Of a DNA stretch of 64,000 bases, positions 61,958-64,000 are shown piece by piece. A program made the position numbers and the translations under genes. This DNA comes from Bacteroidota bacterium (GTDB lineage: Bacteria > Bacteroidota > Ignavibacteria > UBA10030 > UBA8401): NCBI GenBank assembly GCA_008933835.1, contig WBUG01000007.1:1-64000 (forward strand), written 5' to 3'. The notes under the pieces are model-generated. The model did no database searches. It worked only from the letters and a program-made list of their open reading frames with translations, and had not been told where the DNA came from. How positions within the stretch are numbered: the first letter of the stretch is position 1; each line of letters begins with the position of its first letter.

Positions 61958-61991
61958 ACTCACTGAAACTATTATCGTAATATTACGATAA
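61955..61991 (+). promoter_or_regulatory. ars promoter with ArsR operator
   Basis: TTGACT (61955-61960) and TAATAT (61978-61983) are separated by 17 bases, a classical sigma-70-like promoter. A perfect 20-base palindrome TTATCGTAATATTACGATAA (61972-61991) covers the -10 box, so a bound ArsR dimer would block transcription. The start codon of arsR follows at 61998, so the leader is only a few bases. Confidence 0.8.
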
Positions 61992-61997
61992 ATAAGT

Positions 61998-62318
61998 ATG
62001 GGCATTTCTAAAACAGAAGAGTTCACGGCGAAACAGAACCGGCTCGCCGTCATCGCGAAGGCGCTCGGTCACCCCGCGCGGGTGGCCATCGTCGAGTACC
62101 TCGCGTCGTCCGATGCCTGCATGTGCGGCGACATCGTCGAGGTCCTTCCCCTCTCCCAAAGCACGGTCTCGCAGCATCTGCGCGAACTGAAGGAGGCGGG
62201 GCTCATCAAGGGGACCATCGACGGCACGAGCGTCTGCTACTGCATCGACGAGAAGGGCTGGACCGAGGCGCGCGAGATGATGGGCCGCTTCCTCACCGAC
62301 GTGAAGAAATGCTGCTGA
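61998..62318 (+). CDS. arsR: ArsR-family arsenical-responsive repressor
   Basis: A 106-residue winged-helix repressor: RLAVIAKALGHPARVAIVEYLAS, ASSDACMCGDIVEVLPLSQSTVSQHLRELKEAGLIKG (the CxC of DACMCGD is the As(III) site on helix 3, with the DNA-recognition helix SQSTVSQHL after it), and SVCYCIDEKGW. A terminal CC and the CYC give more thiols. It binds the TTATCGTAA palindrome and releases on arsenite. It is the first gene of the ars operon. Confidence 0.95.
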   Translation: MGISKTEEFTAKQNRLAVIAKALGHPARVAIVEYLASSDACMCGDIVEVLPLSQSTVSQHLRELKEAGLIKGTIDGTSVCYCIDEKGWTEAREMMGRFLTDVKKCC

Positions 62319-62339: not shown

Positions 62340-62355
62340 ATCGTAATAATACGAT
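62340..62355 (+). promoter_or_regulatory. Second ArsR operator-like site inside the operon
   Basis: ATCGTA-ATAA-TACGAT repeats the ATCGTA/TACGAT arms of the main operator 22 bases after the arsR stop, directly before the ribosome site of the small peptide. It may add repression or form a loop with the first operator. Confidence 0.65.
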
Positions 62356-62374
62356 ACAACAACAGGAGGAACCG

Positions 62375-62446
62375 ATGAACACGACCGAGACGAAGGAACC
62401 CTGCTGCGGCACCGATTGCTGCTCCGGAACGAAGAAGGAGCGCTGA
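62375..62446 (+). CDS. 23-residue paired-cysteine peptide in the ars operon
   Basis: The start ATG 62375 has a perfect ribosome site (acaggaggaaccg), and the frame ends with TGA one base before arsM. The peptide is MNTTETKEPCCGTDCCSGTKK plus two more residues, with CC-x3-CC, a close parallel of the CCGSGGGCCSG in the first part of the ArsM protein beside it. Four thiols suggest binding of arsenite or another soft metal, perhaps to deliver it to ArsM or ArsR. I know no described family of this size. The 72-base gene is too short for usual gene callers. Confidence 0.6.
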   Translation: MNTTETKEPCCGTDCCSGTKKER

Positions 62447-62447
62447 C

Positions 62448-63260
62448 ATGGCCACCGAACGGGAATTGAAGGAGCTCGTGCGGGAGAAGTACGGCGAGAT
62501 CGCGCTGCAGTCCCGCGAGGAGAACGCCTCCTCCTGCTGCGGCAGCGGCGGCGGTTGCTGCTCCGGCGAGACGTACGACATCATGGCAGAAGACTATTCC
62601 AAGCTCTCGGGGTACGTCCCCGACGCCGACCTCGGGCTCGGTTGCGGTCTGCCGACCGAGTTCGCGCAGATCCGGCCGGGTGATACGGTGGTGGACCTCG
62701 GCTCCGGCGCCGGCAACGACGCGTTCATCGCCCGTTCCGTCACGGGAGAGCGGGGACATGTCATCGGCGTCGACATGACCGCGCCGATGATCGAAAAGGC
62801 GGTCCGGAACGCACAAGCGCTCGGCTTCACCAACGTGGAGTTCCGTCTGGGGGAGATCGAGAACATGCCGGTGGAGGACGGCACCGCGGACGTCGTGGTG
62901 AGCAACTGCGTGATGAACCTCGTGCCGGACAAACAGAAGGCGTTCGCCGAGACCTTCCGCATCCTGAAGCCGGGGGGACACTTCTCCATCTCCGACATCG
63001 TCCTGAAGGGCGACCTGCCGGAGAACATCCGCAACGCCGCGGTGATGTACGCGGGGTGCGTTTCCGGCGCCCAGCAGAAGGAGGAGTACCTCCGGACGAT
63101 CGGGAACGCCGGGTTCGTCAATGTGACCGTCCAGAAGGAGCGCGAGATCCATGTTCCGGACGAACTCCTCGTGAAGTACATCAGCCTCGAAGAGGCGCTC
63201 GCGTACCGGAAGAGCGGCGCCGGCATCTTCAGCGTCACCGTCTACGCCGAGAAGCCATGA
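62448..63260 (+). CDS. arsM: Arsenite methyltransferase ArsM
   Basis: A 270-residue SAM-dependent methyltransferase that turns arsenite into methylated, often volatile forms. It has VVDLGSGAGNDAFIAR (SAM motif I), VIGVDMTAPMIEKA, and the cysteines needed for As binding: SCCGSGGGCCSGE near the N-terminus, LGCGLPTEFAQIRPGD, VVVSNCVMNLVPDKQ and MYAGCVSGAQ. Start ATG 62448 overlaps nothing but is only one base after the tiny peptide, whose last codons carry a gaaggag ribosome site, so the two are coupled. A low-complexity gap then leads to arsC. Confidence 0.95.
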   Translation: MATERELKELVREKYGEIALQSREENASSCCGSGGGCCSGETYDIMAEDYSKLSGYVPDADLGLGCGLPTEFAQIRPGDTVVDLGSGAGNDAFIARSVTGERGHVIGVDMTAPMIEKAVRNAQALGFTNVEFRLGEIENMPVEDGTADVVVSNCVMNLVPDKQKAFAETFRILKPGGHFSISDIVLKGDLPENIRNAAVMYAGCVSGAQQKEEYLRTIGNAGFVNVTVQKEREIHVPDELLVKYISLEEALAYRKSGAGIFSVTVYAEKP

Positions 63261-63299
63261 TCCGGAACCGGAACACCGGCGCACGGAACGAACGATGAC

Positions 63300-63362
63300 C
63301 CATCGTACATCGTTCATCATTCATCATTGATCATTCATTTTCCATCATCCATTATCCATTGC
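63300..63362. repeat. Low-complexity TTCATCATTGATCATT tract
   Basis: Degenerate 7-8 base units (atcattcatc, tccattatcc) between arsM and arsC, of the same type as at 5661-5701 and 8075-8325. No gene or terminator is seen in it. Confidence 0.7.
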
Positions 63363-63368
63363 TTTTCT

Positions 63369-63782
63369 ATGCGCATCCTCATCCTTTGCACCGGTAACTC
63401 CTGCCGCTCTCAGATGGCGGAAGGCTTTCTGCGGAGCTTCGACCCGTCGCTGGAGGTCTTCTCCGCCGGTACGAAAGCGGCGGCACGCGTGCACCCGAAA
63501 GCGGTGCAGGTGATGGCCGAAGCGGGCATCGACCTCGCCGGTCACTCTCCCAAGACGGTCGAACGGTTCCTGCAGGAATCGTTCGACTACGTCATCACCG
63601 TCTGCGGCAACGCGAAGGAGAGCTGTCCGGTCTTCCTCGGCGACGTGCGACACCGGCTGCACATCGGGTTCGACGACCCGGCGGAGGCGACCGGTTCGGA
63701 GGAGGAGGTCCTCGCCGTCTTCCGGCGCGTGCGGGACGAGATCAGGGAACGGTTCGCCCTGTTCCTGAAGGAGGGGCGATGA
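63369..63782 (+). CDS. arsC: Thioredoxin-coupled arsenate reductase (LMW phosphatase type)
   Basis: A 137-residue enzyme reducing arsenate to arsenite. The P-loop [13 protein letters not shown] (Cys-x5-Arg, residues 7-13) is typical of the Bacillus-type ArsC, as is the thiol pair [12 protein letters not shown], which relays the disulfide to thioredoxin. Start ATG 63369 is preceded by repeat sequence and no good ribosome site. The stop overlaps the next gene by four bases (ATGA). Confidence 0.95.
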
Positions 63783-64000
63783 GCGGCGTGACGAAACGGC
63801 TGTCGTTCCTGGACCGGTACCTCACCGTCTGGATCTTCCTCGCGATGGCGGCCGGCGTCGCCGCCGGACACTTCGCCCCCGGCATCGCCGGCGTGTGGGA
63901 TTCGCTCAGCAGCGGCACCACCAACATCCCGCTCGCCGCCGGCCTCATCCTGATGATGTACCCGCCCCTCGCGAAAGTGAAGTACGAGGAGCTGCGGGAC
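63779..64000 (+). CDS. acr3: Acr3-type arsenite efflux permease (3'-truncated by window)
   Basis: The first 74 residues are visible: a hydrophilic start [21 protein letters not shown], a helix ([15 protein letters not shown]), then [28 protein letters not shown], the well-known opening of Acr3 (arsenical-resistance-3) permeases including the [11 protein letters not shown] block. It pumps arsenite out of the cell. The rest lies beyond the window. It starts with an ATGA overlap on arsC and a gaaggaggggc ribosome site. Confidence 0.94.

Follow-up and report, generated by a model that had tools for sequence, protein, structure and literature searches.

The arsenic metallochaperone ArsD carries Cys12-Cys13-Cys18 together with the cysteine pairs Cys112-113 and Cys119-120 (PMC4562236). 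It is a folded protein of more than 100 residues which supplies As(III) to ArsA, likewise an ars protein. In Arsenicibacter rosenii the ArarsRMC operon is described as three genes in the order arsR-arsM-arsC, and the footprint of its repressor, ArArsR, includes ATCGTAATATTGCGAT (PMC11868830). In mycobacteria very short poly-cysteine frames lie directly before an operon gene and are cysteine-responsive attenuators (Canestrari 2020, as described in PMC9031893). The locus considered here lies in the first 64,000 nucleotides of contig WBUG01000007.1 from a Bacteroidota bacterium (GCA_008933835.1), a stretch referred to below as the window. It shares with ArarsRMC the gene order, the ArsR cysteines and the operator core but, unlike that operon as described, it has a frame for a 23-residue peptide with a CC-x3-CC motif between arsR and arsM. 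The evidence points to a real, narrowly distributed gene which is probably functional, and a role as an arsenic helper is plausible. The parts of this micropeptide gene are as follows, the two ribosome sites being assigned from sequence.

62375..62446, + strand: micropeptide gene, 23 aa, MNTTETKEPCCGTDCCSGTKKER; based on four homologs in further genomes, the ratio of nonsynonymous to synonymous change (pN/pS) and codon-position variation
62402..62422, + strand: CC-x3-CC core (CCGTDCC), cysteines invariant across five homologs
62365..62370, give or take 1-2 bases, + strand: ribosome site of the micropeptide, AGGAGG
62429..62439, + strand: probable arsM ribosome site AAGAAGGAG, within the final codons of the micropeptide

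The frame runs from the ATG at 62375 to the TGA at 62444-62446, and coordinates and sequence of the CC-x3-CC peptide match exactly. The first-pass annotation of this DNA had reported a mini-gene with a good ribosome site that ends one base before arsM. AGGAGG is indeed present, and only the C at 62447 separates the stop from the arsM ATG at 62448. An in-frame ATG further upstream would give the same peptide in extended form and has no ribosome site. Apart from this extended form, no other ATG frame of 12-60 aa in the window, whichever the strand, encodes CC-x(1-5)-CC. Like ArsD, the micropeptide has vicinal cysteine pairs and is encoded in an ars operon; it would offer four cysteines against the three that ligate As(III) in ArsD. 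Unlike ArsD it has no family match, and no arsA was seen here. Searches of NCBIfam and Pfam with the peptide and two homologs gave no match, to ArsD profiles or any other, at E up to 10, and no description of such a peptide was found in the open-access literature searched.

ArsM loci were gathered from relatives and the regions upstream of arsM were then read. Homologous frames were found in G001 (MRNNLRFNNDTNEPCCGSDCCSTTTKKEK), G017 (MNTTEPKEPCCGTDCCSGSTSKGGK), G018 (MNATETKEPCCGTDCCSGSTTKGGK) and G011 (MNATETKEPCCGTDCCSPSKGGK), which together with the window genome are the five carriers of this micropeptide family, f1. In all five the frame lies 3' of the operator and stops one base before the arsM ATG. 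The homologs have a ribosome site, GAAAGGATACC or GAGAGGA, at a spacing similar to that in the window, and the arsM ribosome site, AAAGGAGG or AAGAAGGA, again lies inside the frame. The C-terminal KGGK/KKE of the peptides at least partly reflects this arsM site.

A profile search found these five carriers, from two genera of one family, among 98 genomes of the order and gave no other convincing match. When 395 genomes from across the phylum and 391 from the class were scanned, one more carrier emerged, G114, which belongs to another family. The possibility that the peptide would not be conserved beyond close strains had been raised in the first-pass annotation. It is conserved beyond them, but only in two genera of one family, and elsewhere it is cleanly absent, with no traces of decay in the non-carrier loci. 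The search proposed at the same time, for short CC-x(2-5)-CC frames upstream of arsM in other genomes, gave the f1 homologs and G114 and none in the other loci; 119 of the 128 fetched arsM loci were placed by tblastn for this survey, and some loci are duplicated between collections. A scan of all frames in all 128 loci gave no other convincing micropeptide and tblastn on plasmids gave no homolog. Weak profile matches in the phylum and class scans were, on inspection, non-ars frames or the Cys segments and tails of ArsM itself. A match in an Acidobacteria metagenome-assembled genome, L046, was rejected because it is no separate micropeptide but the tail at the C-terminus of a larger protein. 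This protein (L046 2334-2888), directly upstream of arsM, has an ArsI/VOC-like look and ends ACCAPSCCAPVETVKLSR, with a CC-x3-CC tail.

The frame behaves as coding sequence under purifying selection. Summed over pairs of the five homologs pN/pS was 0.28 for the whole frame and 0.03 for the core EPCCG(T/S)DCCS, with 31 synonymous and 4 nonsynonymous pairwise differences; the sequence pairs are not independent of one another, but the direction is clear. In the four gap-free sequences, variable columns at codon positions 1, 2 and 3 numbered 2, 0 and 8, so that variation affected 8 of 17 third positions and 2 of the 34 others (Fisher p 0.001). None of the carriers has a frame break and length differences are always multiples of three. 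Given this absence of frame breaks and the two pN/pS values, the frame appears to be a gene that is translated and held by purifying selection, and the claim of a real mini-gene is upheld. The cysteines are kept at 20 of 20 positions across the homologs and the flanking Glu, Pro, Gly, Asp and Ser are kept too. Since the head of G001, RNNLRFNNDTN, differs from those of the other homologs, it is the cysteine core that is constrained.

The same motif is found within ArsM proteins. A Cys-rich C-terminal tail is present in 25 of the 63 ArsM proteins examined and in none of the six from micropeptide carriers. In many Bacteroidota proteins (L096, L105, L045, L094, L039, L041, L089, L092, L104, L107 and others) it reads CC-x(3-5)-CC or similar and begins directly after SITVYAEKP, the end of the domain. 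Examples are EEKACCGTDCCN (L096), EKSKNCCGTDCCN (L105) and QTDEPCCGDGCCS (L094), and the tails of L096 and L045 end with NEEKACCGTDCCN and EEKKSCCGPECCN, respectively. Two of them, L096 and L105, read exactly CCGTDCCN. In Runella (L040, L042 and L043) ArsM is ∼450 aa long, with an extra C-terminal part and an ACCTPNSGCC end. No description of the Cys-rich tail was found in the literature searched. These tails share with the micropeptide the CC-x3-CC core, the operon context and an acidic or lysine-rich lead-in; however, they are a covalent part of ArsM, whereas the micropeptide has its own gene, which precedes that of a tail-less ArsM. None of the 20 ArsM proteins in the clade of the window has a Cys tail, and the micropeptide accompanies tail-less ArsM only. 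In the ArsM tree the five f1 carriers fall with four non-carriers in one nine-member group, which indicates either a single gain and multiple losses, or transfer.

Paired cysteines also occur in the N-terminal CC-x(3-5)-CC segment of ArsM (family NF008823), although there they are preceded by a conserved head of ∼29 residues which the micropeptide lacks. In G019 (L009), a close relative without the micropeptide, this segment reads CCGTDCCS, the micropeptide core itself. The window ArsM has an N-terminal CC-x5-CC and a C-terminus without a Cys tail. As the ArsM of the carriers is full length with its own N-terminal CC/CxC segment, the suggestion that the micropeptide is the remnant of a split ArsM tail is ruled out.

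Two operator palindromes were found in the window, and no others (four strand matches, where chance would give 0.54).

62340..62355, no strand assigned: ArsR operator copy ATCGTAATAATACGAT (palindrome) at the arsR-arsM junction; from sequence and the match to the ArArsR footprint
61974..61989, no strand assigned: second operator copy ATCGTAATATTACGAT, upstream of arsR, overlapping a sigma-70-like -10

The palindrome before the micropeptide is, judged by its match to the footprint, an ArsR site. The first-pass annotation had taken it to be the micropeptide's own operator, a claim which fails because relatives without the peptide also carry an operator between arsR and arsM. The upstream survey found an operator-like palindrome before arsM in 18 such loci, thus the junction operator belongs to arsM. 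The neighbouring genes are listed below.

61998..62318, + strand: arsR repressor (NF033788, 73 bits)
62448..63260, + strand: arsM arsenite methyltransferase (NF008823, 352.6 bits, cut-off 263)
63369..63782, + strand: arsC-type low-molecular-weight phosphatase family protein (PF01451, E 2.6e-23)
63779..64000, + strand: membrane protein, start only, cut by the end of the window; from sequence and a gene order common to relatives

The membrane protein is presumably an ACR3-type arsenite efflux pump, the family being assigned by recognition. Between arsM and the arsC-like gene, the intergenic DNA (63285-63368) abounds in repeated CATTCAT/CATC units. When counted on the translation against PMC11868830, Cys41, Cys43, Cys80, Cys82 and the C-terminal CC of the arsR product correspond to the cysteine positions of ArArsR.

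The best reading remains the arsenite carrier or buffer of the first-pass annotation. With a probability of roughly 0.5, the micropeptide would be a stand-alone thiol module, translationally coupled to ArsM, which binds trivalent arsenic and either buffers it or hands it to the enzyme. Because the two cysteine pairs are kept in related species it is probably an arsenic-binding helper of ArsM, and its placement between arsR and arsM, 3' of an ArsR operator matching the footprinted site, supports this. The selection on its core, the Cys-rich tails of other ArsM proteins and the separate EPCCDSTCC frame of G114 also speak for this reading. The micropeptide would be translated from the arsR-arsM-arsC operon once ArsR has left its operators. 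Three residues separate the two vicinal cysteine pairs of the peptide, and these four cysteines could supply the three thiolates preferred by As(III), or two for methylarsenite. Cytosolic trivalent arsenic captured in this way may be buffered or handed over to ArsM, which carries a similar N-terminal CC-x(3-5)-CC segment. The micropeptide would then be the detached counterpart of the C-terminal Cys-rich tail on many other Bacteroidota ArsM proteins, and the output of both would be coupled by the close junction, at which the frame terminates a single base short of the arsM ATG and contains the arsM ribosome site.

Several points weigh against this reading. Translation and metal binding of the micropeptide are both predictions from sequence, and its position suits a cis-acting leader equally well. 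The CC-x3-CC motif binds Zn, Cu or Cd too and is not arsenic-specific. Distribution is narrow, with five carriers among 98 genomes of the order and one more in the class, and the close relatives G019, G020, G003 and G006 have the same operon without the micropeptide; being rare and missing from these relatives, it is dispensable. The mutual exclusion of tail and micropeptide gave a hypergeometric p of ∼0.04 (calculated by hand); the pattern cannot be separated from phylogeny, with the five f1 carriers all in a single tail-less clade.

The main rival to the arsenic module is a cis-acting leader, in which ribosomes on a frame rich in Cys codons would control arsM by coupling and the peptide itself would be inert. 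The ribosomes would stall once free cysteine or charged tRNA-Cys drops, for example when arsenic consumes thiols. The close junction with arsM in all five f1 carriers speaks for such a leader, the mycobacterial attenuators described in PMC9031893 offer a precedent and all 20 Cys codons are TGC. However, TGC is usual for the Cys codons of arsM too (31 of 35 in these loci). The mycobacterial frames, so far as that source describes them, are leaderless, whereas the micropeptide frame is preceded by a ribosome site and keeps residues other than Cys. RNA structure gave no support for a leader: it was no better than in shuffles (z -0.48, 0.31 and 0.17) and no compensatory pairs were seen, with three sequences only. 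Nor can the ArsM tails bearing the same motif be leaders. A leader accounts for the coupling but does not explain why Glu, Pro, Gly, Asp and Ser are conserved while their codons change freely at synonymous positions, and we consider it unlikely.

A second rival holds that the arsM 5' end was once partially duplicated and that the frame is a neutral or decaying relic of this event, kept by chance. Such an origin is clear in the unrelated carrier G114, where a separate EPCCDSTCC frame of 49 aa (...SEPCCDSTCCGSS...) lies before arsM.

L186 (G114:C23:9000-15500), arsR-arsM junction; L148 307-158, - strand (in L148): duplicated frame of G114, overlapping the arsR end

This frame arose by tandem duplication of the arsM ribosome site together with the first codons of that gene, with 37 of 43 bases identical and an alignment score of 56, the null maximum being 33. 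G114 may have reached the f1 arrangement independently. Its arsR has KGGSKSCETKKK where a C-terminal CC is usual. The patchy presence within the family of the window would also fit a relic. However, alignment of the head and ribosome-site DNA to the arsM head was not significant in any of the five f1 loci, leaving a duplication undetectable in this family, and the strong selection on the core, the intact frames and the clean absence from non-carriers are not the marks of decay. A relic is therefore quite unlikely.

That the micropeptide binds another soft metal (Zn, Cu or Cd) or protects the thiols of ArsM, with no part in arsenic carriage, would agree with the established breadth of the motif but is improbable given that all five f1 carriers have the peptide 3' of an ArsR operator and adjoining arsM. 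An untranslated chance frame, in favour of which its shortness of 72 nt can be cited, is highly improbable with homologs in another genus, synonymous-biased change, a ribosome site that is kept and no second such frame in the window.

If the arsenic module is correct, the micropeptide would be among the smallest metalloid-handling proteins, and loading of ArsM by a thiol module, fused or free, would be suggested. More tentatively, and on balance doubtfully, it may stand for an undescribed class of free arsenic micro-chaperones of 23-29 aa with a CC-x3-CC motif, which would be translated together with ArsM, could be exchanged for the Cys tail of other ArsM proteins and would serve arsenic methylation as a detachable module for loading substrate. 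The common default minimum of gene callers is 90 bases, so a frame of 72 would usually be missed, as the first-pass annotation had anticipated, and ars operons can hold genes shorter than this cut-off.
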